In this document: positions 4,426-46,959 of the stretch, piece by piece
Layout of the letters: each line of letters opens with the position of its first letter
Numbering within the stretch: position 1 is the stretch's first letter
The notes under the pieces: model-generated
Database searches by the model: none
The model's input: only the letters and a program-made list of their open reading frames with translations
Told to the model about the DNA's origin: nothing
Position numbers and translations under genes: made by a program
Source: Thermotogaceae bacterium
Lineage (GTDB): Bacteria > Thermotogota > Thermotogae > MWEM01
Reading direction: 5' to 3'
Length of the DNA: 47,370 bases
NCBI GenBank assembly: GCA_030445775.1
Contig: JASUTC010000007.1
Span: forward strand, 1 to 47,370

Positions 4426-6516
4426 TTATTTTTCGATATACCAGTTTTGAATAACCCAACCCAATCCACCATCGTAAGTGGAACTGAAGCTTCTGATATA
4501 TTTCTTGGCAAAATGGGGGGTAGGATCTGCCATTAATGGAATAACCGGCAATTCCTCCGTCCAAATTTTAAAGTGTTCGGTGTACAGTTCCAGCTTTTTT
4601 TCAGCTGCCATTGTTCGTGTTAATTCATCTAATATTTCATCATTTCTTGCATTTGACCATCCGGTATAATTGGTTCCACCAAATCCGTTGGCTTCACTTG
4701 GAATATTGTTGGATCCCCAGTAATTGGATGCTTCATCGTTGATACCGTAACCCCATCCTGTCAGCAACGCATCGAAATTTCCGTAAGGCATTACTTCAGT
4801 CCAGAGAACGAGAGATGGTTTCAGGTCGATATTGACTTTCATACCTATAGCCTTCAACATGCCCTGTATCAACTGAGAAAGAATTTCTGTTTCAGTACTG
4901 CCAGCAGCACCAATGAGTTTAAACTCGAAGATTTCGCCATCTTTTTCATAGTATCCGTTCTTGTTCATCTTCCAACCGGCTTCTTCCATTAACTGTTTTG
5001 CCTTTGTTGGATTATATTCATAATGTTTGATGACAGGGGCTTTGAGCGCTTCTCTCATCATGTGAAGTTCTGTAATCCAAGTGTCAACAATCTCCGCTTC
5101 ACCCTGGAAGACGATGTTGTTAATCTGTTCTCTGTTCAAACCATAAAGGAATGCCTGTCTGGTTCGAATATCACCAAACAAGGGATTGGGTTTTGTGAGG
5201 TCTTCAGGATCTCTGAAATTCAAATCAATACAGCGATAAGCCACATTTGGTGTCAGGAAAACGTTGAACATGTCTGATTTCTGATTTCTCAGTTGCAAAC
5301 TCTGTTTGAGATCCAATGTGTATCTTCCTACATCGATTTCTCCATTCAACGTTGAAGCAAAGATAGAATCGGAATCCGGAATGATTCTAAAGATAACCGT
5401 ATCAACATTGGGTCTTCCCATGTAATATTCATCAAAGGCCTCAAGAACCACATGCTGACCTTCTTTGTACTCCTTTAACTTGTATGGTCCTGATAATACT
5501 GGGTTTCTGGTGATGTCATTAGCAAAGGCATCCCATTTTCCTGAGGCTTTTGCCTCTTCAAAAGGTTCTCTATAAACGTGTTCTGGGAGTTGGAACCAGC
5601 CGAAATAATAACCGTATACGGAAGAACCGAATTTCCCGTCAGCCATGGGCTGATCAAAATAGATCGTGAAACTGTAATCATCGTTCACTTCAACCTTTTG
5701 GACCATTCGTTCAAAATAATTAGACGCAACCGGTGCGTCTGACACCATAACTTCCCACTGGAATGCAGCATCATGAGCTGTGATTTCAACACCATCATGC
5801 CATTTCATTCCTTTTCTTATGTTGTAAGTAATCGCCATTCCACCGTTATCCAACATCTGAATTAATCCGTTTTCCACGGTTGGAATTTCTTTGATCATTC
5901 TTGGGATGTAAAAACCATCTTCATTGGTACCCATATAACCGTCACCAAGAATATTACACAGCGTCCAGGTTAATCCAGATGATGTGAAGAGTGTGTTAAA
6001 TCCGGGTGGATCCGCTGTGACTGCCGTGACAACCTGTCCGCCTTGTTCCGGTGGGAAGATTGCCGAGTAAAAAGAACGTGCTGCTTCTATTTTTGTGATG
6101 GCTTTAAAAGGGGCAGCCAGTTGACCGTAACGATAATCCAGTAACTGTCTGTTACTCTGATAGGCTAATGTGAATTGAGGTAAATAAGCATCAGGGATAA
6201 TCCTTTCATCATTTGCCCAAGTGTAAGCATCTTCAAACTTCAACGCTTCATCTTCCAAATCCAATATTTTCAACACATTAGCAATGAAATCTTTACGAAG
6301 CACTTGTTCCGGACCGGCTTCAAAAGGGATCTCTGCTTCCGGGAAAGCCACTTCAACTGCCGTGTAGAACTCTTCGTAGGTTAAAGGATCTGCTGTACAG
6401 TCACTCAATATCTCTTTACTCTCGATATAAGGGACGGCAATATCCTGAGCGACCTGTCCAAAAAACACCGAAAAAAACAGGGAGAAACACGCAACAAACA
6501 AAATACATCTTTTCAT
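4426..6516 (-). CDS. oppA: Peptide ABC transporter substrate-binding protein with N-terminal SLH-like region
   Basis: Extracytoplasmic family 5 solute-binding protein (DppA/OppA type), 696 residues. Residues 1-20 form a signal peptide (KRCILFVACFSLFFSVFFG). I see no clear lipobox, so simple secretion rather than lipidation is likely. Residues about 44-153 precede the binding domain and resemble one and a half S-layer homology motifs: VLRKDFIANVLKIL, then FEDAYTWANDERIIPDAYL, ending in AITKIEAARSFYSAI. The binding fold runs from about residue 160 with typical segments (MKWHDGVEITAHDAAF, NPVLSGPYKLKEYKEGQHVVLE, EAGWKMNKNGYYEKDG). First gene of the opp operon; Shine-Dalgarno GGAGGTG. The SLH reading is by eye and needs a profile search. 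Confidence 0.9.
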   Translation of the reverse strand: MKRCILFVACFSLFFSVFFGQVAQDIAVPYIESKEILSDCTADPLTYEEFYTAVEVAFPEAEIPFEAGPEQVLRKDFIANVLKILDLEDEALKFEDAYTWANDERIIPDAYLPQFTLAYQSNRQLLDYRYGQLAAPFKAITKIEAARSFYSAIFPPEQGGQVVTAVTADPPGFNTLFTSSGLTWTLCNILGDGYMGTNEDGFYIPRMIKEIPTVENGLIQMLDNGGMAITYNIRKGMKWHDGVEITAHDAAFQWEVMVSDAPVASNYFERMVQKVEVNDDYSFTIYFDQPMADGKFGSSVYGYYFGWFQLPEHVYREPFEEAKASGKWDAFANDITRNPVLSGPYKLKEYKEGQHVVLEAFDEYYMGRPNVDTVIFRIIPDSDSIFASTLNGEIDVGRYTLDLKQSLQLRNQKSDMFNVFLTPNVAYRCIDLNFRDPEDLTKPNPLFGDIRTRQAFLYGLNREQINNIVFQGEAEIVDTWITELHMMREALKAPVIKHYEYNPTKAKQLMEEAGWKMNKNGYYEKDGEIFEFKLIGAAGSTETEILSQLIQGMLKAIGMKVNIDLKPSLVLWTEVMPYGNFDALLTGWGYGINDEASNYWGSNNIPSEANGFGGTNYTGWSNARNDEILDELTRTMAAEKKLELYTEHFKIWTEELPVIPLMADPTPHFAKKYIRSFSSTYDGGLGWVIQNWYIEK

Positions 6517-6573
6517 TGTCTACACCTCCGTTTTAGTAATGGTACTGATATTGTTTAAAATTTTTTATGTTGA

Positions 6574-6585
6574 AAGATTATAACA
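6574..6585 (-). promoter_or_regulatory. Putative extended -10 promoter of the opp operon
   Basis: On the minus strand, TATAAT (6577-6582) is preceded by TGT, giving an extended -10 element about 60 bases upstream of the oppA ATG. No good -35 hexamer lies at 17-18 bases. The surrounding gap 6517-6748 is strongly AT-rich and holds no ORF that I would call a gene. Confidence 0.5.
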
Positions 6586-6748
6586 TACTGATATTACATC
6601 TAAGTAGCTTATATTGCTGAAAATTCTGTTACCAATGTAAATTCTTCTCGCTTATTAATTGTTGCATATAACACTATATTTACTTTATATTTCTTTTATT
6701 GCATTTAAATATAACCTAATTCGAGGATATTTTTAGATGTTCCCAAAA

Positions 6749-6779
6749 GCAAAAAGGTACTCTATGAGTACCTTTTTGC
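6749..6779 (-). terminator. Hairpin terminator after serA
   Basis: A perfect 14-bp inverted repeat (6749-6762 and 6766-6779) with a 3-nt loop. The stem has an A-tract on one side and a T-tract on the other, so it can work in both directions. On the minus strand it follows the serA stop by about 35 bases and is continued by TTTT. No plus-strand gene reads into it. Confidence 0.85.
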
Positions 6780-6813
6780 CTGGATAATTTTATTGGTGAA
6801 AGATTTCTATTTT

Positions 6814-7734
6814 TTAAAGTTGTTCTAACGCCTTGATCAAATTTTCAACGATCTGTTCTCCCACTCTTTCTTGTGCCTCGTAAGTGGATGCACCGATATG
6901 TGGTGTACAAACTACATTATCAAAAGCAATAAGTTTTTTTCTCAATTCATCGGTTGGTGGTTCTACATCAAACACATCTAAAGCGGCTCCTGCAACTTTT
7001 CCGTTTTCGATATTGTCAAAAAGGGCCTGTTCGTCAAGAATACCACCGCGCGCAGCATCGATGATGAAGACGCCTTTTTTCATTTGTTCAAAAGCCTTTC
7101 CATTGATAAGACCTTTTGTTGCATCCAATAATGGTGTGTGAATGGTGATGATATCGGATTTTTGGTAGAGTTCTTCCAATCCGACAAATTCAACATCCAA
7201 TCCACCGGCATCCTTTACAACATCATAGGCCAAAATCTCACAGCCGAAGGCCAATAATCTTTCTGCAACCTGTTTGCCAATGGTCCCAAAGCCTACAATC
7301 CCTACTGTCTTTTTGAACAGCTCACTTCCTTTAAGCTTTTTCTTTTCCCAAAGTCCTTCTTTCAAGCCGTTGGTACCTCTGGGGATGTGTCTGAACAATC
7401 CCAGCATAAGGCCGATGGTTAATTCTGCAACACTGACAGAATTTGCTCCAGGGGTATTGACAACAGTTATTCCCGCTTTTTTTGCAGCGTTGAGGTCTAC
7501 GTTGTCCAGTCCCGTCCCGGCTCTGGCGATGACTTTCAGATCCGTGCCGGCTTCTATAACCTCTTTGGTAACTTTAGTTGCGCTTCTCACAACGATGGCA
7601 TCGTATCCGGCTATTTTTTGTACCAAAACATCCTGATCATAATGCTCTGATGTGACTTCTGCCTTTTCATAGGATTCCAGGTTTTTCATGGCATTGGGGT
7701 CTAACGGATCGTTCACGTGGATTTTGAAAGCCAC
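6814..7734 (-). CDS. serA: D-3-phosphoglycerate dehydrogenase-type 2-hydroxyacid dehydrogenase
   Basis: NAD-dependent oxidation of 3-phosphoglycerate to phosphohydroxypyruvate is the likely reaction, the first step of serine synthesis. The 306-residue protein has the Rossmann motif GFGTIG (148-153). The catalytic arginine is R229 (DAARGG), the glutamate E258 (DVFDVEPP) and the histidine H279 (CTPHIGAST). It lacks the C-terminal ACT regulatory domain, so it is the short form without serine feedback. GTG at 7734 is chosen because GAGGG lies eight bases upstream; a GTG at 7743 has the Shine-Dalgarno directly against it. It starts one base after the aminotransferase stop. The same enzyme pair side by side is known to me from Thermotoga. 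Hydroxypyruvate or glyoxylate reductase activity is an alternative. Confidence 0.85.
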   Translation of the reverse strand: MAFKIHVNDPLDPNAMKNLESYEKAEVTSEHYDQDVLVQKIAGYDAIVVRSATKVTKEVIEAGTDLKVIARAGTGLDNVDLNAAKKAGITVVNTPGANSVSVAELTIGLMLGLFRHIPRGTNGLKEGLWEKKKLKGSELFKKTVGIVGFGTIGKQVAERLLAFGCEILAYDVVKDAGGLDVEFVGLEELYQKSDIITIHTPLLDATKGLINGKAFEQMKKGVFIIDAARGGILDEQALFDNIENGKVAGAALDVFDVEPPTDELRKKLIAFDNVVCTPHIGASTYEAQERVGEQIVENLIKALEQL

Positions 7735-7735
7735 A

Positions 7736-8872
7736 TCAAACACCCTCTTTCAAAAAGACCTCTTCGGCAGCTTTAACGCCTGAACCCAATTCTACCTTGT
7801 GACCCATCTCGTTAAATGCCATCTCAAGGGCTGCTAATCCAATAATCGTGTCAAATTTACCCATGTAACCCAAGTGTGCCATTCTGAATATCTTTCCTTT
7901 GTAATCATCCTGTCCGCCGGCCATGGTTACACCGTATTTGTCTCTCATGAGTTTGGTGAGTTTTCCTGTATCAACCGGTGCAAGAACTGCAGTGGTTACA
8001 TTTCCTGGCTTTTTAGACAGCAATTCCAGACCCATTGCTTTTACTCCGGCTCTTGTGGCATCTGCAAGGATTCGGTGTCTTTCCCAAACGTTTTCAATAC
8101 CTTCTTCTTCAATCATCTTTAAAGCGGCACTGAGTTGATAAATCTGGTTAACGCCGGCTGTGTATGGTGAATCCGGGTATTTTTTGCTGTATTTCTTCAA
8201 GTCAAAGTAATACTTGTTTTTGTTGGGGCATTCGTTGACTCTGGCAAGAGCCTTTTCACTGAGTGTTATCAAAGCCAGTCCCGGAGGAAGCATAACGCCT
8301 TTTTGAAGGCCTGTTGCAACGATGTCCACATGCCATTCATCCATCTTGAGAGGTTCTGCCAATAAACCACTGACTGAGTCTACAACCATTAACGCCTTGT
8401 AATCCTTTACAACAGCCGCTATTTCTTCAATGGGGTTTACGGTTCCCGTTGACGTTTCACTGTGTGTGGCAAATACCGCGACAGTATCCGGGTTCTTTTC
8501 AAGGGCCGCCTTAATCTGCTCCGGTTTGACGTAATCTCCCCATTCCAATTTAATCAAGTCAATTTCCGCTTCAAATGCCTTACATAATTGTGCCCATCTT
8601 TCTCCAAATTTTCCGCCATCCACAACAATGACCTTGTCTCCTTTGGCCACTGTATTTGCCACAGCTGCTTCCATGGCTCCTGTTCCAGTTGAAACCAGAG
8701 CCAGAACATCATTTTTGGTTTGAAAAAGCATCTTTGCCTTTTCTAAGGTTTCCTTTTGCAGATTAACGAATTGAGGTGTTCTGTGATGAATCGTTTCCTG
8801 CGCACCTGCAAGCAATACCTCTGTTGGTACTGGTGTGGGTCCCGGTGCAAGAATGTAATTTTTTTTAATCAT
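7736..8872 (-). CDS. Class V aminotransferase (serine/alanine-pyruvate or glyoxylate type)
   Basis: PLP-dependent aminotransferase of the AGXT/PucG branch, 378 residues and close to the usual length. The N-terminus LAPGPTPVP is the family start. [10 protein letters not shown] is the cofactor-phosphate loop, VVDSVSGLL contains the ring-contacting aspartate, and K191 in [12 protein letters not shown] is the Schiff-base lysine. Coupled with the adjacent dehydrogenase it could run serine synthesis or serine/glyoxylate interconversion. True SerC belongs to a different class V branch, so substrate assignment stays open. Strong Shine-Dalgarno (GGAGGG) and its own promoter at 8931-8959. Confidence 0.85.
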
Positions 8873-8930
8873 TTACCATCCCTCCTAATATGTTAACGCC
8901 TGTTGTTTTTTTTTATCTTATTCATGGGAT

Positions 8931-8959
8931 ATAATAACAAAAAAAGGAGTCTTTGTCGA
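8931..8959 (-). promoter_or_regulatory. Promoter of the aminotransferase-serA operon
   Basis: Minus-strand -35 TCGACA (8954-8959), a 17-base spacer holding a run of seven T, and -10 TATTAT (8931-8936). It lies about 60 bases upstream of the ATG at 8872. Confidence 0.6.
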
Positions 8960-9031
8960 GTGTTAACAATTATTTCAATAGAAACAAATTTTGAAATTAT
9001 TTGCATATCAGCCTGATAAACAAGGTGGTTA

Positions 9032-9040
9032 TGATATAAT
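9032..9040 (+). promoter_or_regulatory. Putative extended -10 promoter of the histidine kinase operon
   Basis: TGATATAAT, an extended -10 element with TATAAT at 9035-9040 and no convincing -35. Transcription would begin near 9047 and pass through the hairpin and T-run at 9054-9092 before reaching the gene at 9131. Confidence 0.5.
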
Positions 9041-9053
9041 TCCATTAACCGAA

Positions 9054-9092
9054 ACAGTCAAAACAATGAATGTTTTCCGACTGTGTTTTTTT
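9054..9092 (+). terminator. Terminator-like hairpin in the leader of the histidine kinase gene
   Basis: ACAGTC-AAAACA pairs with TGTTTT-(CC)-GACTGT around a 5-nt loop, with a two-base bulge on the 3' side. G and then seven T follow (9086-9092). This is the shape of an intrinsic terminator, yet it lies between the putative promoter and the start codon. No plus-strand gene ends upstream of it. It could be an attenuator or the 3' end of a very short RNA. Confidence 0.55.
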
Positions 9093-9130
9093 ACCCTTAG
9101 ATTGGCCAATTTGCCACTGGGAGACTTTTT

Positions 9131-11935
9131 ATGAGTGATCAGTTATTTAATCAACTAAAATTATTTAAAACCCTGTTGAATCTTGATATCGTTAACTCCG
9201 ATGAAAGCGTGAATGAATTAGCTGAGGAATTATCCTATAACTTCTCATCAAACGAATGCGCTGTTTTCATCTTTGAAAACGAAAAACAGGCGTTTCGCTT
9301 GTTTGGCATTTCTACTCTCGATAAATCGTTGGTTAAGGTTTTAAAGATAAAGGTTACCGATATTCCAAATTACCAGCAACTTAAAAGGGGAAATATCGTT
9401 AAAATAGAAGATGAATCAGGCAGGGATGCTTTTGAGTTTCTCAATTCACCAAAATTATCGTTGTTTCCAGTCATTGACAATCATCAAGTTGTTGGAATGA
9501 TCGTCTTTGGTTACGAAGATGACGTTGAAAGCCTAAATTTGGTTAATCTGGCAGATCTCCTTCGCTCGATCGGTAAGATTGTCAAATTATCTATAGAAAA
9601 TAGGTTGTTCAAGGAAAACACGAGTAAACTCCTCTCTTTAACACGTTTACATGAAATAGTGAACAAGTCCAGAGATGAAGAAACCCTTTACAGGGAATCC
9701 ATGAATATGACCTGTACCATGTTAAATGTTGAAAACGCCTCTATTTGGCTTAAAAACGATAGCGATGAGCTTGAAATTAAATATTGGTACGGCATCCGTG
9801 AAGAACAAATACTAAGAAAAACCATCCCCGTTAATCACGGTATGGTGGGCTGGTGCTTCGACAACAGGGAACCAGTACTCTCAATTTCTGCCAAAAAAGA
9901 CCCTAGGGCAGCCTTAGATATGTTGGATGTGGATATTAAATCCGCAATTGCAGCTCCCTTGTATCATGATAACGATATCTACGGTGTCATCATTTTAATA
10001 AACCGTAAAGATCAACCACTTTACAGACCGTACAAACATTTTGATGAAATTGATTTAGCCTTGTTGGAGGATATTGCCTCCAGAATATCCTTGGGAGTCT
10101 CAAAATTAAAATACGTGACCGAATTATCTAAGGAAAACAAGAAATTTAGAGCACTGACCCTTGCCAATGAAAGGTTGTTGTCCCAACAGAAAGAACAGGT
10201 TCGGTGGTTGAAAAATATAACTTACATCAACCGAGCCATGAGAGAGAGTTACGATGTGAAAAATATTCAAAGTATTATGCTCCTGGGCATCACGTCGGAA
10301 AGAGGGTTAGGATTTGACCGAGCCTTGCTTTTGCAAAAAAATGATCGGAATCAGACGCTGGTAGCCAAATACTGGATGGGGATCATGAGTGAAGATGAGA
10401 TGGCAACCAAGATCGGCAGTTCAACAGGTCAACATTACGGATTGGGAAACTTCACCCAATATCTGAGGGAAAAGGCATTGACCATGGATCTCGATGATTA
10501 TGCCGATCACACCGTTAGAAACCGCGTTTTCCCCTATAAAAGTCATATCGTGTTTGAAAAGGTGGTTACCAGAAAAAAGATCGTTAAAGTCATCCCTGAG
10601 ATCGTTGAAGAATGGGGCAATGAATACCGTGAGCTGGCTGCATTATTGGGAACGGAAGAATTTGTGGTTGTTCCTTTGGTCGGCCGGTTTGAGACCGTGG
10701 GTGTCTTAATCCTTGACAATCGATTTTCAGGCAAAGAAATTTCTGTTAATTTAATCGACGTGCTAAAAATATTCTCGGATAATGCAGGTTTGGCAATTGA
10801 AAACGTTCAAAACTATGAAGAGTTGAAATCAAAAACATTGTCTTTAGAACGTCAAACATCACTTTTGAATTATCATAAGGAATTCACAACCAGCATACTT
10901 GAAAGCTTGGATGTGGCAATTATCGTTTTGGACAGAGAGGACAAAATCAGGGAATGGAACAGGCGTGCTGAATCGGTTTTTAAACACAGAAAAGAAGAAG
11001 TCTTGGGTTTAAGTTTTGACAATATCGAACACAGTTTTGAAGACCTTGAAAATGTTGCGGAGAAAGTTTATGAAACAAAAGACACCATTGTTTTAACCGA
11101 GTATGAGATGAAGGTCAAGGGAGAAACGACCTTCTTTGATATCAAATTCACCCCATTACGCCATACGGATTCAGACCAGATAGAGGGTATCATCATCATG
11201 TTCGATAACGTTACTCAAAAGAAACTCATGGAAAATGAGATCAGAAGACGTGAAAAATTGTCAACCTTGGGAGAGATGTCCGCCAGAGTAGCTCATGAAA
11301 TCAGAAATCCCCTTTCGGTTATCGGTGGATTTACACAAAGGATGTCCAAATCTTTGGAAGCGGGAGAAGAAAGAAGAACTTTTAAATATCTGAGTATCAT
11401 TGAAAGTGAGGTCAAGCGACTTGAAAAAATTGTTGAAGAAATTTTAGAATTCAGCCGTCCCATGAAACGGCTGGAATTTGAATTGGTTAACATCAACAAG
11501 GTCATTGATGATCTTGTAACACTATACGAAGATAAGATCGACTCAAAGGGTATAGAATTAAAGAAAGAAGTTCATTCTTTAGAAATCATGGTGGATGTGA
11601 GTCGCATAAAACAAGCCATGATCAACCTTATTCAAAATGCAATCGATGCCTGCAAAGGATACATCGAAATTGTAACGGAACAACAAGGTGAGTTTATGAA
11701 AATTAAATTTTTAAACGATGGAGAAGTTTTGGACAAAGAGACGCAAGATAAGATCTTCTCGCCCTTTTTCACAACAAAAACATCCGGAACGGGGTTGGGA
11801 CTCCCCATCACCAAAAAGATTATTGAAGAAGAGCATAATGGAAGTTTAACCATAGAAACGGAAGTTAGAAAAGACAGGGAATACACGGTATTTATCATTG
11901 AAATACCCATAAAGCTGTCAGAACAGGAGGAATAG
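9131..11935 (+). CDS. Soluble sensor histidine kinase, three GAF-type domains, PAS, HisKA, HATPase
   Basis: 934-residue cytoplasmic kinase with no membrane segment. By eye the order is: a degenerate GAF-like domain (about 15-155), a clear GAF (about 175-325, ending near APLYHDNDIYGVIIL), a third GAF-like domain (about 370-565, VVVPLVGRFETVGVLIL), a PAS domain (about 585-700), HisKA with phospho-acceptor H722 (ARVAHEIRNPLSVIGGF), and HATPase_c with the N-box (NLIQNAID, about 830) and GTGLGLP (about 887). In the G1 region the usual DxGxG is NDGEV, a variant seen in some NtrB/Kin-type kinases. Several GAF domains suggest small-molecule or redox sensing; the signal is unknown. The receiver gene follows three bases after the stop. 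Confidence 0.92.
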   Translation: MSDQLFNQLKLFKTLLNLDIVNSDESVNELAEELSYNFSSNECAVFIFENEKQAFRLFGISTLDKSLVKVLKIKVTDIPNYQQLKRGNIVKIEDESGRDAFEFLNSPKLSLFPVIDNHQVVGMIVFGYEDDVESLNLVNLADLLRSIGKIVKLSIENRLFKENTSKLLSLTRLHEIVNKSRDEETLYRESMNMTCTMLNVENASIWLKNDSDELEIKYWYGIREEQILRKTIPVNHGMVGWCFDNREPVLSISAKKDPRAALDMLDVDIKSAIAAPLYHDNDIYGVIILINRKDQPLYRPYKHFDEIDLALLEDIASRISLGVSKLKYVTELSKENKKFRALTLANERLLSQQKEQVRWLKNITYINRAMRESYDVKNIQSIMLLGITSERGLGFDRALLLQKNDRNQTLVAKYWMGIMSEDEMATKIGSSTGQHYGLGNFTQYLREKALTMDLDDYADHTVRNRVFPYKSHIVFEKVVTRKKIVKVIPEIVEEWGNEYRELAALLGTEEFVVVPLVGRFETVGVLILDNRFSGKEISVNLIDVLKIFSDNAGLAIENVQNYEELKSKTLSLERQTSLLNYHKEFTTSILESLDVAIIVLDREDKIREWNRRAESVFKHRKEEVLGLSFDNIEHSFEDLENVAEKVYETKDTIVLTEYEMKVKGETTFFDIKFTPLRHTDSDQIEGIIIMFDNVTQKKLMENEIRRREKLSTLGEMSARVAHEIRNPLSVIGGFTQRMSKSLEAGEERRTFKYLSIIESEVKRLEKIVEEILEFSRPMKRLEFELVNINKVIDDLVTLYEDKIDSKGIELKKEVHSLEIMVDVSRIKQAMINLIQNAIDACKGYIEIVTEQQGEFMKIKFLNDGEVLDKETQDKIFSPFFTTKTSGTGLGLPITKKIIEEEHNGSLTIETEVRKDREYTVFIIEIPIKLSEQEE

Positions 11936-29372: not shown

Positions 29373-29771
29373 ATGGTTGAATCGATGATCAGATTACGGA
29401 TGAGCATGCACGATGCCCATTATGCGGGAGAACTGGTAGACGGTGCAAAGATGTTGCAATTATTTGGAGATGTAGCCACTGAACTCTTGATTAAAAATGA
29501 CGGTGATGAAGGATTATTTGCAGCCTATGACAATGTGGAATTTCTGGCACCTGTATATGCGGGTGACTATATCGAAGCAAAAGGCTGGATCGAAAAGGTC
29601 GGTAACACCTCAAGGAAGATGAAATTCGAGGCGTACAAAGTCATAGAGAATGCCCGTCTTGAAGACCAAGACAGTGCCTGTAATGTCCTTGAAAACCCCG
29701 TATTGGTTTGCAGAGCCAGCGGCACGTGTGTGGTTCCCAAAGATAAGCAAAGAACAGAAAACGAGGGGTGA
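29373..29771 (+). CDS. kal: 3-aminobutyryl-CoA ammonia-lyase
   Basis: Removes ammonia from L-3-aminobutyryl-CoA to give crotonyl-CoA in the lysine fermentation pathway. 132 residues, hotdog fold. The stretches [50 protein letters not shown] and [11 protein letters not shown] match the Kal sequences I remember almost motif for motif. Strong Shine-Dalgarno (GGGGGAG). It is paired with kce four bases downstream. The remaining pathway genes (kamA, kamDE, kdd, CoA-transferase) are not in this window. Confidence 0.88.
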
Positions 29772-29775
29772 GAGC

Positions 29776-30603
29776 ATGTCTGATTTTAAAAAACTGATCA
29801 TAACAGCTGCCATTTGCGGTGCTGAAGTGATGAAAGAGCAAGATCCCTATTTACCCACAACGCCTGAGGAATTGTCAGATGAGGCAAAGAGATGTTTTGA
29901 CGCGGGAGCAAGGATTGTTCACCTTCACGTTCGGGATGAAAAGGGGAATCCCACACAGGATGCTGAAATCTTTAAAAAAACAGTTGCCATGATTCGAAAA
30001 AAAGCACCTGAACTCATCGTTCAAGTATCAACCGGAGGGGCAACCTGGATGAAACCGGAAGAAAGATTGCAAAGCCTTGAATCCAATCCGGACATGGCCA
30101 CATTGTCAACGGGAACCTCCAACTTCGGGTCGGATATTTTCATGAACACAAAAGACATGATTCTTAAATTTGCAGAAAAAATAACGGAAAAGAATATCAT
30201 GCCTGAATTTGAGTGTTTTGAAGCCGGTCATGTGAGTTTCGCCAACTGGTTGGTGAAAAAAGGCTACATTAACAGAAAGCATTATCATTACGACTTTGTC
30301 ATCGGTGTTCCCGGTGCAATGGAGGCCAGTCTGGAAACGATCTGCCATATGAAAAACATGATTCCCGATGAAGCAACCTGGTGCGTAGCAGGCATCGGCA
30401 GGCATGAGTTAAACATGGCAGCTATTGCCATCGCAGCCGGAGGCCATGTCAGAGTAGGAATGGAGGATAATATATACATTTCCAAAGGGGTATTGGCAAA
30501 AAGCAACGCGGAACTGGTTGAACGAGTTGTCGCCATTGCCAAAAACTTAAACAGAGAAATCGCTACAGCGGAGGAAATAAAGGAATTATTCGGACTATCA
30601 TAA
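29776..30603 (+). CDS. kce: 3-keto-5-aminohexanoate cleavage enzyme
   Basis: Zinc-dependent BKACE-family enzyme: 3-keto-5-aminohexanoate plus acetyl-CoA gives 3-aminobutyryl-CoA plus acetoacetate. 275 residues. It starts KKLIITAAICGAE, with zinc ligands in HLHVRD (H49, H51) and the glutamate in HVRVGMEDNIY near the C-terminus. The ATG at 29776 is eight bases after GAGGGG; the frame is open further upstream but the extra residues copy kal in another frame. Pairing with kal makes the lysine role likely. Without that context other beta-keto acids would be possible for this family. Confidence 0.88.
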   Translation: MSDFKKLIITAAICGAEVMKEQDPYLPTTPEELSDEAKRCFDAGARIVHLHVRDEKGNPTQDAEIFKKTVAMIRKKAPELIVQVSTGGATWMKPEERLQSLESNPDMATLSTGTSNFGSDIFMNTKDMILKFAEKITEKNIMPEFECFEAGHVSFANWLVKKGYINRKHYHYDFVIGVPGAMEASLETICHMKNMIPDEATWCVAGIGRHELNMAAIAIAAGGHVRVGMEDNIYISKGVLAKSNAELVERVVAIAKNLNREIATAEEIKELFGLS

Positions 30604-41717: not shown

Positions 41718-41752
41718 GAAGGGACACAAAAGTGCCCCTTCATCATTTTTTT
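41718..41752 (+). terminator. Intrinsic terminator after murJ
   Basis: A 10-bp stem with one A-C mismatch (41718-41727 and 41732-41741), an AAAA loop, then ATCA and seven T (41746-41752). It begins four bases after the murJ stop region. Confidence 0.8.
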
Positions 41753-41879: not shown

Positions 41880-43283
41880 CTAACAAATTTTCCCCGGGTT
41901 TAAAATATCATTTGGGTCAAAGGCCCTTTTAACCCGTTTAATCAGACTGATCTGAGACTGACTTAATGCCATGGGCAAATAGGGCATTCTTTTGATCCCG
42001 ATACCGTGTTCTCCGGAAAGGGTTCCTCCCAATTCCAGGACTCTTTTATAGAGTTGCTTTAAATTCGCTTCTACTTTATCATTCCAGATTTTGTCGGTCT
42101 TCTCTGCACTAAGGAATGTCACATGCATGTTCCCGTCTCCGGCATGACCAAAGTTGACGGTTTCAATGTGCTCTCTTTGAGAAAGTTCGTTGACAAATGA
42201 CATCAATTGTGGGATTTTGTTGATGGGAACTACCACATCTTCCATGCAAAAATCAGGGTAAAACGCTGAAATGGCTTCGGCTATGGATTTTCTGGCTTTC
42301 CAAATCTTTTCCCGAGTGTTTCTGTTGTCGGCAACAAACACCTCTTGTGCCCCGTATTTGAAACACATCTGGCCAATCTTTTCATACTCATCGGCCACCT
42401 GTTCCCTGCCGTTTCCCTCGATCCCGATAATGAGATGTGCCGCTGAGTCCGAATAAGGTAATTCGTTGTTTAAAAATCTTTCAGCAAGTCTCAAAGAAGC
42501 GTTATCCATGAATTCTAAAGATGCGGGGATTGTATGGGCTTCGATCATTATTTTTGGTACAAACGCTATGGCTTCTTCAACTGTCTTAAAAGGAACCAGA
42601 AGATCAACAGTAAATTCCGGAAGGGGAATGAGCTTCAGAATAATCTTGGTAATAATTCCAAGTGTTCCTTCAGAGCCCACCATTAAATTGATAAAATCGT
42701 ACCCGGTAACGTTTTTGACCAATTTTCCACCAAAAAAATCAACAGTACCATCAGGCAAAACGACTTCTATTCCCATCACATGATCCCCCGTGGGACCGTA
42801 TTTCACGACTTTGTTTCCCCCTGCATTCTCCGCAAGATTCCCACCAATAAACGAGGCATCTGAACTGCAGGGATCTCCTGCATAAAGCAATCCTGAAGCG
42901 GCTGCCATTTTTTGAATCTCATCAGTTATTACTCCGGGTTCGACTGTTATCGTCAATGTTTCTTCATCCAATTCCACAATACGGTTCATCCGTTCCAAAG
43001 AAAGGACAATCCCGCCTTTGATGGGAACAGCTCCTCCTGAAAGACCAGTTCCGGCTCCCCTTGGGGTAACGGGTATCAGATGTTGATTGGCAAATGCCAT
43101 GACCTTTGAAATCTGTTTGGTGCTTTCTGCAAAAACAACCGCTTCAGGCATATGTTTGTATTTTTCACCTTTGACTTCATCATGGGAGTATACCTCAAGC
43201 CTTTCTTCATCCGTGTTAATACAATGCGATCCCACTATGTCAGTCAATTCCTTCAATAATTGTGTTGTTAGTCTATTAAACAT
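41880..43283 (-). CDS. FAD-dependent D-2-hydroxyacid dehydrogenase, probable D-lactate dehydrogenase (GlcD family)
   Basis: 467 residues. The N-terminal FAD_binding_4 (PCMH) domain has PRGAGTGLSGGAVP (about 74-87), GDPCSSDASFIGGNLAENAGG and GYDFINLMVGSEGTLGIIT. The C-terminal FAD-oxidase domain has HAGDGNMHV and GTLSGEHGIGIKR. D-lactate and glycolate oxidases share all these features. Here the context (etfA, etfB, murQ) points to D-lactate oxidation to pyruvate with electrons passing to Etf. No glcE or glcF Fe-S partner is present. ATG at 43283 follows AAGAAGGTGA and overlaps the etfA stop by eight bases; the reading upstream of it only copies etfA. Confidence 0.88.
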   Translation of the reverse strand: MFNRLTTQLLKELTDIVGSHCINTDEERLEVYSHDEVKGEKYKHMPEAVVFAESTKQISKVMAFANQHLIPVTPRGAGTGLSGGAVPIKGGIVLSLERMNRIVELDEETLTITVEPGVITDEIQKMAAASGLLYAGDPCSSDASFIGGNLAENAGGNKVVKYGPTGDHVMGIEVVLPDGTVDFFGGKLVKNVTGYDFINLMVGSEGTLGIITKIILKLIPLPEFTVDLLVPFKTVEEAIAFVPKIMIEAHTIPASLEFMDNASLRLAERFLNNELPYSDSAAHLIIGIEGNGREQVADEYEKIGQMCFKYGAQEVFVADNRNTREKIWKARKSIAEAISAFYPDFCMEDVVVPINKIPQLMSFVNELSQREHIETVNFGHAGDGNMHVTFLSAEKTDKIWNDKVEANLKQLYKRVLELGGTLSGEHGIGIKRMPYLPMALSQSQISLIKRVKRAFDPNDILNPGKIC

Positions 43284-44301
43284 GGCTTTCACCTTCTTTG
43301 TCACTGACGGGTTTGGCAAGCTTTTCTTTTAATTGTTCAATCATCTTTGGTACAATATCGTACAAATCCCCACAAAAGGCATAATCGGATACTTGAAAGA
43401 TAGAGGCATCCGGATCTTTATTCACTGATACGATTATCTCTGAGGTTTCCATTCCGGCAATGTGTTGAACCGCTCCTGAAATCCCGATGGCAAAGTATAA
43501 TTTCGGTGAAACTACCTTACCGCTTAACCCCACCTGATGGGGATATTCCATCCACTTTGCCTCGATGGTAGGCCTGCTGGCCCCAATTCCTCCCTGGAGG
43601 ATATCCGCCAGCTGTTTGAGCAAATCAAACCCTTCTTTTCGTTTGAGACCTTTTCCGCCTGAAACGATGATATCTTTGTCTTGGATATTTTCTGCGCCGG
43701 CTTCCAGGGGCTGATAATCCAATATCTCAATGGTTGTCTGTTTCATGTCATCATTCAGGTAAAAAGGCTCAACTACCCCGGAAGCACTTCTTTTTTCAGG
43801 GATTTTAAACGTTTTAGGCCTGACGGTGGCCATTTGCGGTCTGTGATGGGGTGTTTTGATGGTCGCCATGATGTTTCCACCAATTGCCGGTCTGGTTTGA
43901 AGTAATAGGTCGCTTTCTTCCTCAATATCCAGTCCGGTGCAATCTGCCGTAAGACCAGTATGAATCGTTCCCGCAACCGCGGGAAGAACCGTTCTTCCCC
44001 CTGTTGTGGCGGGAGCTAATACGATTTGTGGCTGTTCCTGAAGAATCAGCGCACTCATTACATTGGTATGAATTTCTTGGTTGAAAAGACGAAAGCATTC
44101 GTCTTGAGATACAATAACTCGATCTGCGCCGAAAGAAAAAAGGTCCTCTACTTTTTCTTCCAGTTTATTAAACAACGTTACTACCACAACTTCACTGTTC
44201 AACTTATCCGCTAATTCCCTTGCTTTTCCAGTCAATTCATAACTGACGGGGTGGATGGACCCGTTTCTGATTTCTGTGTAAACCATAACTGATGGATTCA
44301 T
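43276..44301 (-). CDS. etfA: Electron transfer flavoprotein alpha subunit
   Basis: 341 residues. The N-terminal Etf domain (VMVYTEIRNGSIHPVSYEL) is followed by the C-terminal FAD-binding domain, with SGGKGLKRKEGF, HQVGLSGKVVSPKLYFAIGISGAVQHIAGM and NKDPDASIFQVSDYAFCGDL. It lacks the extra N-terminal ferredoxin domain found in the EtfA of some LDH-Etf complexes, so any bifurcating partner ferredoxin would have to be soluble. ATG at 44301 is eight bases after AGGAG; a GTG at 44310 is too close to it. It lies 11 bases after etfB. Confidence 0.93.
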   Translation of the reverse strand: MNPSVMVYTEIRNGSIHPVSYELTGKARELADKLNSEVVVVTLFNKLEEKVEDLFSFGADRVIVSQDECFRLFNQEIHTNVMSALILQEQPQIVLAPATTGGRTVLPAVAGTIHTGLTADCTGLDIEEESDLLLQTRPAIGGNIMATIKTPHHRPQMATVRPKTFKIPEKRSASGVVEPFYLNDDMKQTTIEILDYQPLEAGAENIQDKDIIVSGGKGLKRKEGFDLLKQLADILQGGIGASRPTIEAKWMEYPHQVGLSGKVVSPKLYFAIGISGAVQHIAGMETSEIIVSVNKDPDASIFQVSDYAFCGDLYDIVPKMIEQLKEKLAKPVSDKEGESHV

Positions 44302-44312
44302 ATCAACCACTC

Positions 44313-45110
44313 CTATTGATTTAAAACGGATGTCTTAATCTCTTCAACCAATTCACGGATACCCTCTTCTATTTGGCTTCCGCTATATCGTTTTGTCTTT
44401 CTGGTTTTCTGAGGTGTGGTCACTTTCACCACACGGGTTGGCGACCCTTTTAGCCCCAACTCTTCAGACTTTATATCTAAATCTTGGGAAGTCATCGTGA
44501 CAATGTTTGCCCTTCTTGAATTCATTTTTCCTCGAAGTGTCGGCATAGAGGGATTATTCAAAGCACTTAAAACGGTAATAAGACATGGAAATTGAATGCG
44601 TTGTTTTTCCGTACCATCCTCAACCGTTCGTGTAACCACCACATTATTCTCGTTGTGTTCAATCGCACTTACATAAGTAGCACAGGGCATGGACAGCATA
44701 GCTGCTACTTCCGGCCCAACTTGTCCTGTTTCACCGTCCGTTGCCTTTTCACCGGCAAGAACCAGATCATATTTCCCTGACTTCTTCAAAGCCTCTGCCA
44801 AGACTTTCGCCGTTGCCCAACTGTCTGCACCGGCAAACTTCCGATCTGTCAACAACACTGCTTCGTCGCCACCCAGTGCCAAAGCTTCTCTCAATGCAAA
44901 CTGTGCGTTTGGTGGCCCCATGGTTAAAACAGTTATTTCACAATCATCTTTACGATGTCTTTTTATCTGTACCGCTGCTTCAATGGCATTAAGGTCCAAG
45001 GGGTTGATAATCGTCCCAGAACCTTCACGAATCATGGTCCCTGTTTCTGGATCCAGTTTCACATCATCTGTATCCGGTACTTGTTTGATCAAAACGGCTA
45101 TCTTCATCAT
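44313..45110 (-). CDS. etfB: Electron transfer flavoprotein beta subunit
   Basis: 265 residues. The start KIAVLIKQVPDTDDVKLDPETG, then INPLDLNAIEAA, TMGPPNAQFALREALALGGDEA, and LTDRKFAGADSWAT (87-100) are as in clostridial EtfB subunits that work with butyryl-CoA or lactate dehydrogenases. That last block is, as I recall, typical of the bifurcating group. GLKGSPTRVVKV near the C-terminus is also standard. Its start overlaps the kinase stop as ATGA, behind GGGAGAG. EtfAB carries electrons between the adjacent FAD dehydrogenase and NAD and/or ferredoxin. Confidence 0.93.
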   Translation of the reverse strand: MMKIAVLIKQVPDTDDVKLDPETGTMIREGSGTIINPLDLNAIEAAVQIKRHRKDDCEITVLTMGPPNAQFALREALALGGDEAVLLTDRKFAGADSWATAKVLAEALKKSGKYDLVLAGEKATDGETGQVGPEVAAMLSMPCATYVSAIEHNENNVVVTRTVEDGTEKQRIQFPCLITVLSALNNPSMPTLRGKMNSRRANIVTMTSQDLDIKSEELGLKGSPTRVVKVTTPQKTRKTKRYSGSQIEEGIRELVEEIKTSVLNQ

Positions 45111-45997
45111 AAATCTCTCCCATCTTTTTCTTTTCCTATCTTGGCTAATTCTATCTCTATATCTTTTTTACTTTTTTTCAGGGGAATTTTTCCCTGTAAA
45201 TGGCGTTTGAATTCTTGAAGAAAAAACGGACTTTCAAACATTCCACCCATATAAATGATACTTTTAACTTCATCTCCTATTCGTGATTTCATGCTTTCCA
45301 AACTGCTAATAACGGTAATGATTCCCTGAGTAATGATTTGTTGCGCCAAAGGGTATTCTCTGTCTAAAAAAACAGAAGATAAGGCCGCTGTTCCACGCCT
45401 GTATTGAGCTTCATAAAAACGATATAAGGCGTCTCGAGGTTCACATTCAAATTTTTCTCGAAAGACATCAAAGGAGAGATCATCTTCTCTTACCCCATCG
45501 AAATAAGCTAAATATTCCTGGAAAAGCCTTTTCACAAGCCAAAAACCACTTGCTTCATCTCCGAGCAGATAACCCCAACCACCTGCGCGGTAAAATTGTT
45601 CGTCCTCATCTTTCCCCACAATAACAGAACCTGTTCCGCAAATAACAAGCACGGATGCTTGTTTGGGAGAATTGGCTAAAAGAGAACCGTACGCATCATG
45701 ATAAACCCGAACACATGCTGTTTCAAAAAAGACTTCTTTTACAATTTGTTTGGTTTTGATTAGTTGCTGACTTGCTCCTACACCTGCCAGGTTGATCATA
45801 ATAACTTTAATATCCTGGCAATAATTGATAATTTGTTGTCTAATCATTTCCAGAGTTTCTTTTAAGTAAGCAAATCCTGTAGAAGTGGGATTTGAGTTTC
45901 TATGTAATTTGAAATGAGCCATGATCTTTTTTTCTTCGTCAATCAAAGCAGCTCTTATCGTACTGCCGCCACCATCTATACCTAAATAATAATTCAT
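45107..45997 (-). CDS. BadF/BadG-type amino-sugar kinase, MurNAc/GlcNAc kinase (MurK-like)
   Basis: ASKHA-fold kinase of 296 residues. Phosphate-1 motif GIDGGGSTIRAA (6-17), phosphate-2 motif VICGTGSVIVG (about 115-125), then GGWGYLLGDEASGFWL, typical of N-acetylglucosamine kinases, and the adenosine motif IIYMGGMFESPFF. Clostridial MurK of this family phosphorylates both MurNAc and GlcNAc. One base after murQ, the natural role is making MurNAc-6-P for MurQ without a PTS. ATG at 45997 follows AAGGA inside the end of murQ. The frame is open upstream but reads through murQ there. Confidence 0.87.
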   Translation of the reverse strand: MNYYLGIDGGGSTIRAALIDEEKKIMAHFKLHRNSNPTSTGFAYLKETLEMIRQQIINYCQDIKVIMINLAGVGASQQLIKTKQIVKEVFFETACVRVYHDAYGSLLANSPKQASVLVICGTGSVIVGKDEDEQFYRAGGWGYLLGDEASGFWLVKRLFQEYLAYFDGVREDDLSFDVFREKFECEPRDALYRFYEAQYRRGTAALSSVFLDREYPLAQQIITQGIITVISSLESMKSRIGDEVKSIIYMGGMFESPFFLQEFKRHLQGKIPLKKSKKDIEIELAKIGKEKDGRDL

Positions 45998-45998
45998 G

Positions 45999-46904
45999 TT
46001 ATCCTTCGTTTTCAGATATCGCTTTCCGGATGAATCCCTCGTGCTTTTCCAGTAATTCTTCCGCCTTTTGAGTCTCCACATCCAAAAGTAAACTAACAAT
46101 AGCTACTTTCGCCTTCCATTCGCATTTTTCAAGTGTTTTTCGAGCCTTTTTGCTTTCGACTCCGGTTATTTCACAAACCATATTTGTGGCACGAACCTTC
46201 AATTTTTCATTTAATGTGAGAACATCCACCATGTAATTCCCGTATACCTTTCCCTGTTTGATCATTGTGGCGGTACTAATCATATTTAAAACCATCTTTT
46301 GGGATGTTCCCGCCTTCAGTCTCGTTGACCCTGTTATGACTTCAGGTCCGGTCACAATCTTGATTACATGATTGGCATAAGGGGCAAGTTCCGGATTTTC
46401 CACATTGGCTATCAAGACCGTTTCTGATCGCTTTTCTGAGGCATATTGAAGTGCGCCCTTTACAAACGGCGTTCGACCACTGGCTGTAATGCCGATTAAA
46501 ATATCATTGGAATTCACATTTAAGTGCTTTAATTCAATTTGTGCTTCCTCTTCGCTATCCTCAACTGCTTCAAGACTTCTATAGACCGCTTCTTTTCCGC
46601 CGGCCATGACATATGTAAATTTTTCTGGAGAAGCGTTGAAAGTGGGGACGGTTTCTACCGCATCGACAATGGCAAGCCTACCGCTTGTTCCTGCCCCAAG
46701 GTAAATGACCCTGCCACCTTTTTTATGGGCACTTATACATTTTTGAATAACACGTTCAATATCCGGAAGAGCCTCTCGAATACAAAGCGGAACCGTGGCA
46801 TCCTCTTCATTCATAATCCTTAAGATTTCATCAACAGACATGGAATCAATATTAACGGTCTTAGGATTTCTCCGTTCGGTATCCAGATTTCTCAATGTCC
46901 TCAC
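45999..46904 (-). CDS. murQ: N-acetylmuramic acid 6-phosphate etherase
   Basis: Splits MurNAc-6-P into GlcNAc-6-P and D-lactate during cell-wall recycling. 301 residues, normal length. The SIS-fold motifs are YLGAGTSGRLAIVDAVE, with catalytic E84 (the usual DASE is DAVE here), AGGKEA with the second glutamate E105, ITASGRTPFVKGAL, and the GCKR-like TGSTRLKAGTSQKMVLN. The C-terminal helical part is complete. The GTG at 46904 has its Shine-Dalgarno (AAGGA) almost touching; the TTG at 46895, ten bases after it, may be the real start. First gene of the five-gene operon. Confidence 0.94.
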   Translation of the reverse strand: MRTLRNLDTERRNPKTVNIDSMSVDEILRIMNEEDATVPLCIREALPDIERVIQKCISAHKKGGRVIYLGAGTSGRLAIVDAVETVPTFNASPEKFTYVMAGGKEAVYRSLEAVEDSEEEAQIELKHLNVNSNDILIGITASGRTPFVKGALQYASEKRSETVLIANVENPELAPYANHVIKIVTGPEVITGSTRLKAGTSQKMVLNMISTATMIKQGKVYGNYMVDVLTLNEKLKVRATNMVCEITGVESKKARKTLEKCEWKAKVAIVSLLLDVETQKAEELLEKHEGFIRKAISENEG

Positions 46905-46930: not shown

Positions 46931-46959
46931 ATTATACCAGTATTTCTTGGTTTTGGCAA
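46931..46959 (-). promoter_or_regulatory. Promoter of the murQ operon
   Basis: Minus-strand -35 TTGCCA (46954-46959), a 17-base spacer, and -10 TATAAT (46931-46936) preceded by TGG, an extended -10. This is the best promoter match in the window. It lies about 27 bases upstream of the possible start codons' leader. No catabolite or MurR-like operator is recognised. Confidence 0.75.

Follow-up and report, generated by a model that had tools for sequence, protein, structure and literature searches.

A recurrent linkage of murQ to Ldh-EtfAB genes in Thermotogae and its predicted role in the recovery of cell-wall D-lactate

The window, that is, the whole stretch of 47,370 nucleotides that was analysed, comes from a Thermotogaceae bacterium (contig JASUTC010000007.1 of assembly GCA_030445775.1). 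Its minus strand carries five genes, murQ, a BadF-type kinase gene, etfB, etfA and the gene for a GlcD-fold dehydrogenase, which a sequence-only reading had described in this order as one operon joining peptidoglycan recycling to D-lactate oxidation. The open reading frame coordinates bore out the order, the common strand and the spacing given there, the successive junctions being +1, -4, +11 and -8 bases. The genes and the signals beside them are as follows.

45999..46904, minus strand: murQ, encoding N-acetylmuramic acid (MurNAc) 6-phosphate etherase, which releases D-lactate; GTG start, alternative TTG at 46896
45107..45997, minus strand: murK-like gene, encoding a kinase of the BadF/BadG/BcrA/BcrD family; ATG at 45997, gap of 1 base after murQ
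44313..45110, minus strand: etfB; ATGA overlap of 4 bases with murK
43276..44310, minus strand: etfA; probable ATG at 44301 (gap of 11), alternative GTG at 44310 (gap of 2)
41880..43283, minus strand: ldh, encoding a predicted LctD-type D-lactate dehydrogenase dependent on flavin adenine dinucleotide (FAD); ATG at 43283, overlap of 8 bases with etfA
46931..46959, minus strand: sigma-70-like promoter match TTGCCA-17-TATAAT with an extended -10 TG; best in the region, 11 of 12 positions
41718..41741, minus strand: terminator-like hairpin between ldh and the convergent murJ; -22.1 kcal/mol, z -2.4

The five genes are predicted to be co-transcribed. The match upstream of murQ is only suggestive as the promoter of the operon, because such matches are equally frequent in shuffled sequence (14 promoter-like sites in the region and 13.8 in the shuffles, that is, no excess); of the "one good promoter" claimed earlier, the best match in the region stood, but promoter-like sites as a whole did not exceed the random level. 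The hairpin at 41741-41718 is a plausible terminator.

Comparison with curated models upheld the identification of murQ, the product scoring 350.5 bits against the NCBIfam equivalog model TIGR00274 (cut-off 302) and 268 bits over residues 2-297 against the solved MurQ 4lzj in the PDB. The MurQ reaction releases D-lactate (PMC3022706, PMC6165865). The kinase, which had been called MurK-like, does belong to the BadF family, matching PF01869 (BcrAD_BadFG) at 85 bits (cut-off 31.5), but its resemblance to MurK was low, with just 60 bits to its best solved relative, the dual-specificity kinase 8zo3 for MurNAc and N-acetylglucosamine (GlcNAc). The catalytic Asp of sugar kinases is kept, preceded by a His, in the segment VYHDAYG, which aligned with VNDAEIA of 8zo3. 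The product is likely to be a MurNAc and/or GlcNAc 6-kinase.

The dehydrogenase carries PF01565 and PF02913. Its closest relative of solved structure is LctD of Acetobacterium woodii (387 bits), which leads glycolate oxidase (261 bits) by 126 bits and is followed at greater distance by the mitochondrial-type LDHD (229 bits) and 3pm9 (222 bits). Residues His377, His384, Glu422, His423, Arg328 and Asp346 are kept in the dehydrogenase; they include those that bind the metal in LctD, its catalytic His and its substrate-binding Arg (roles from PMC9232219). Since these metal and catalytic residues are also kept in the other family members tested, it is the score gap to LctD that discriminates. Both the scores and the tree described below placed the enzyme nearer the LctD of Ldh-EtfAB than glycolate oxidase, and thereby answered on the side of D-lactate a check that the sequence-only reading had proposed.

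In A. woodii, Ldh-EtfAB depends on three EtfB segments, DGDTAQVGP, RXFXG and SPT, whose mutation cripples the complex, and on two features of EtfA, Arg205 and a [4Fe-4S] domain at the N-terminus (PMC9232219). The Etf subunits of the window match PF01012 and PF00766. EtfB contains the b-FAD motif as DGETGQVGP (residues 125-133), the motif for nicotinamide adenine dinucleotide (NAD) as RKFAG (90-94) and SPT (223-225), and EtfA keeps the Arg equivalent to R205 (flavin N5) in RPAIGG. The mark of canonical Etf, a bulky residue replacing the b-FAD Gly, was not seen in EtfB, which keeps the DG of the motif; the b-FAD and NAD motifs are of the bifurcating type, as bears on the second check proposed earlier. 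In trees of EtfB and EtfA, built with few references and having long branches, LctB and LctC clustered with the Thermotogae class, apart from CarDE, Bcd-Etf and Thermotoga maritima Etf, with supports of 96/90 and 96/87. The three-subunit module probably shares its ancestry with LctBCD, while the way in which ferredoxin could dock differs.

The neighbourhood of these genes was compared across 103 genomes of the Thermotogae class, in which f1-f11 denote families, G genomes and L loci. An ldh gene was present in 52 of the 103 genomes and murQ in 56; both were found in 46 and one alone in 16 (Fisher p 5e-13, kinship among the genomes not being corrected for). In 15 of the 46 genomes with both, the two genes lay within 5 kb of each other, where about 0.2 would be expected under random placement, again with no correction for kinship. 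The gene maps showed linked loci in families f1, f2, f9 and f11, in four arrangements:

murQ-murK-etfB-etfA-ldh: f1 (G000, the genome of the window, and G002) and G061 of f9
murQ-GntR-murK-etfB-etfA-ldh: f11, in G100; G095 is apparently split by a contig end within murK
ABC sugar importer-NamZ-murQ-etfB-etfA-ldh: f9, in G014 and G033
GntR-murQ-NagZ divergent from etfB-etfA-ldh: nine f2 genomes

Representative loci were compared with Pfam to verify neighbours such as NamZ, NagZ, Amidase_3, AnmK and LarA; the etfBA-ldh genes of G051 have an amidase_3 gene immediately upstream. Because four families of the class show the linkage, the arrangement from murQ to ldh is not due to chance, and because the flanking genes differ between families, it is not the mere preserved synteny of a large block. 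The search for murQ beside etfAB and a GlcD homologue that the sequence-only reading had called for thus found the linkage conserved across the class.

The remainder of a MurNAc pathway is present in the genome of the window, which is 86% complete: NamZ, a GH3 (NagZ-like) enzyme, NagA and NagB scored above curated cut-offs, and several proteins of the POR family (pyruvate:ferredoxin-type oxidoreductase) were found. At another locus of this genome (L122:2152-7909, G000:C111), the NamZ gene is followed by a sugar-binding-protein-like gene and diverges from a peptide-type ATP-binding cassette (ABC) transporter, and similar transporter genes adjoin NagZ-murQ-GntR in f2 genomes. These positions suggest that the transporters serve muropeptide uptake.

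In the Ldh tree, the class divided into clade A (f1, f2, f4, f9 and f11) and clade B (f3, f5 and f7), and all 17 linked loci, comprising the 15 within 5 kb and two cut by contig ends, fell in clade A. In clade B, the lactate racemase LarA adjoins the genes at five of the ten mapped loci, several of which also have an aldehyde dehydrogenase, a class II aldolase or an FGGY kinase; examples of etfBA-ldh with LarA and various of these genes in f7 and f3 are L108:1463-9706 (G021), L092, L106, L127 and L128. Rhamnose- or fucose-type sugars pass via lactaldehyde to L-lactate, and the f7 and f3 clusters suggest a route from deoxyhexoses through lactate to pyruvate. A racemase is to be expected there because that context should yield L-lactate, and none is needed after MurQ because MurQ releases D-lactate; LarA is also encoded downstream in some clade A genomes (G005, G066 and several of f2). 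Lactate is the common denominator of the contexts of both clades, through MurNAc in one and through LarA with deoxysugar genes in the other.

The interpretation that best accounts for these observations, with a probability of roughly three in four, is that the operon would provide a complete recovery of MurNAc, including oxidation of its lactate by Ldh-EtfAB. The BadF-type kinase would form MurNAc-6-phosphate, the lactyl ether of which would be cleaved by MurQ to give GlcNAc-6-phosphate and D-lactate. The former would pass to NagA and NagB, which are encoded elsewhere in the genome, and the latter would be oxidised to pyruvate by a complex of the LctD-type dehydrogenase and EtfAB. D-lactate from MurQ is very probably the physiological substrate. 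Lactate is not a strong enough reductant for NAD, and its NAD-linked oxidation is uphill; for this reason flavin-based confurcation is the likeliest route, in which an electron that lactate delivers through the EtfA flavin and a second one supplied by reduced ferredoxin would meet on the EtfB flavin to form NADH. We infer electron transfer to NAD on this basis, and confurcation of ferredoxin and NAD is somewhat favoured as the electron route. The core of the sequence-only reading, the proposed oxidation by Ldh-EtfAB of D-lactate freed by MurQ, is well supported by comparison, through the conserved linkage, the closeness to LctD and the EtfB motifs. In its favour, too, G014, taken as Kosmotoga pacifica, a species for which growth on lactate has been reported (PMC5217533), has its only LctD-type gene in the NamZ-murQ-etfBA-ldh cluster.

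Several observations weigh against this interpretation or narrow it. The linkage is not obligatory, because Mesotoga-like and Kosmotoga olearia-like genomes, in which the murQ and ldh sets lie 12-30 kb apart or more, and genomes of the sister clade keep the gene sets separate; no murQ-linked locus occurs in f3, f5 or f7 of clade B. All linked dehydrogenases may descend from a single linkage event. The similarity of the kinase to MurK is distant, and the active-site positions 332, 344, 345 and 386 differ between the dehydrogenase and LctD. The N-terminal ferredoxin domain is absent from the EtfA of the window and from 30 of 30 class members examined, and this domain is essential to confurcation in A. 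woodii (PMC9232219). Because of its EtfA, the complex of the window may be regarded as a variant of Ldh-EtfAB that could work alike and not as a full member.

The missing domain also supports a less likely alternative, in which D-lactate from MurNAc is oxidised but EtfAB is a plain carrier that passes electrons without confurcation to another flavoprotein, a hydrogenase or a quinone-type acceptor. A canonical Ldh-Etf of this kind exists in Fusobacterium nucleatum, where electrons go to butyryl-CoA dehydrogenase (PMC12630350), and the f2 genomes examined have another residue in place of the Arg in the EtfB NAD motif RxFxG. On the other hand, EtfB of the window retains the small Gly indicative of b-FAD binding, together with the NAD and SPT motifs, and EtfA the N5 Arg; no acyl-CoA dehydrogenase was detected by family search in the 86%-complete genome. 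Moreover, Bcd-EtfAB works without the ferredoxin domain, which is therefore not needed universally, and for this reason confurcation is still the most likely reading.

Butyryl-CoA dehydrogenase was considered as the electron acceptor and is not supported, given the same family search. The idea that the whole class has lost the NAD motif was likewise rejected: alterations are found mainly in f2, with G005 also affected and G018 slightly so, and the motif is intact in the window. The electron route may differ in f2. At f2 loci L081, L082, L083, L084, L085, L086, L103 and L104, the Ldh-linked EtfB lacks both the RxFxG Arg and the b-FAD Pro (P to V or I), a hint of a changed electron acceptor. The sequence-only reading had further placed the operon in a redox network with NfnAB; NfnAB is present in the window, but no evidence was found that ties it to the operon.

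It is improbable that the module works in the opposite direction or has a general role in lactate metabolism, such as the use of exogenous lactate or redox balancing, with murQ and murK merely co-transcribed. Ldh-EtfAB is reversible, with a bifurcating direction about 10 times weaker (PMC9232219), and the reported growth of K. pacifica on lactate was in the presence of yeast extract (PMC5217533). Against such a general role, the linked clusters, in which NamZ, NagZ, MurK, the sugar importer and GntR-UTRA regulators recur, contain no recognised lactate permease, and an operon of that kind would have no need of a gene that releases D-lactate. More improbable still is a dehydrogenase acting mainly on another 2-hydroxy acid (glycolate or longer), with the adjacency of murQ reflecting general catabolic clustering: substrates vary among GlcD-fold enzymes, some substrate-site positions are unlike LctD and the glcD model TIGR00387 was matched at 425 bits, but this is below its equivalog cut-off of 567.9, no glcE or glcF is found among the five genes of the operon, the lead of LctD over glycolate oxidase is wide and lactate is what the two clades have in common.

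Compared with A. woodii LctBCD (PDB 7QH2), the module has the same order etfB-etfA-ldh, an LctD-like dehydrogenase with the metal and catalytic residues, the b-FAD, NAD and SPT motifs of EtfB and the EtfA Arg205; it differs in the lack of the [4Fe-4S] domain, in several substrate-pocket positions and in being joined to murQ-murK, whereas LctBCD is joined to a lactate permease and a racemase. Kinase 8zo3 is MurK of Clostridium acetobutylicum, whose murQ is paired with a gene for a BadF-type MurNAc/GlcNAc kinase. The same pairing of MurQ with a BadF-type kinase is seen in the window, where the operon continues into etfB-etfA-ldh and the kinase similarity is low.

Operons of etfBA-ldh are known from Thermotogales and other anaerobes, frequently accompanied by LldP or LarA (Weghoff et al. 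2015, cited in PMC5910564); the description given there names permease and racemase as partners of the Thermotogales GlcD-EtfAB operons and mentions no linkage to murQ, NamZ or NagZ. D-lactate from MurNAc-6-phosphate can be oxidised to pyruvate in Escherichia coli and in engineered Corynebacterium via the respiratory Dld (PMC3022706, PMC6165865). Dld of aerobes depends on quinone or is associated with the membrane, and no linkage of it to murQ is known, while the window has an anaerobic, Etf-coupled enzyme in a murQ operon. As D-lactate release by MurQ, confurcation by Ldh-EtfAB and etfBA-ldh in Thermotogales are already known, only the link to murQ would be new. The sequence-only reading knew of no description of the two as one unit, and no paper joining murQ to Ldh-Etf was found in the literature searched, which covers few subscription journals and so gives weak evidence that an earlier description is absent.

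To our knowledge, the fate of recycling-derived D-lactate in strict anaerobes, which lack a respiratory dehydrogenase for it, has been little studied. Fermenters of the Thermotogae probably recover cell-wall lactate as pyruvate and reducing power, and the recurring operon of MurQ and Ldh-EtfAB offers a concrete answer open to testing in cultured K. pacifica. The chances are about even that this amounts to a dedicated anaerobic salvage of the peptidoglycan lactyl group by a confurcating Ldh-EtfAB without a built-in ferredoxin domain, an external ferredoxin docking on EtfAB. If so, wall turnover would supply a fermenter with both pyruvate carbon and NADH. One lactate-oxidising module is seen here in two lactate-releasing pathways, that of MurNAc and, probably, that of deoxyhexoses. 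A naturally occurring Ldh-EtfAB that lacks the ferredoxin domain would also allow a direct test of the need for that domain in confurcation.

A few minor observations were made in the course of the analysis. Two genomes of genus g9 each have a murQ with one in-frame TGA (G010:C5:21183-22070, L030, and G029:C50:6874-7761, L029), for which a pseudogene, a sequencing error or recoding is possible. At 29373-30603 of the window lie the lysine-fermentation genes kal and kce, yet the genome, at 86% completeness, yielded no acyl-CoA dehydrogenase for crotonyl-CoA. Outside the class, where the scan was weak, no murQ was found near the Cloacimonadota and Chloroflexi loci recovered by one EtfB scan of genome contigs. 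At the Cloacimonadota loci (L068:4673-5461, L069:8001-8786 and L070:543-1328), the gene for an EtfB-like protein (44-47% identical) adjoins one for an Lgt-like protein and has no etfA next to it. In the Chloroflexi (L071-L074, approximately 6340-10030), etfB and an EtfA of about 400 amino acids are paired with an FAD dehydrogenase of 548-554 amino acids that is about 25% identical to Ldh, and the EtfA of L073 carries ferredoxin-type Cys motifs at its N-terminus.

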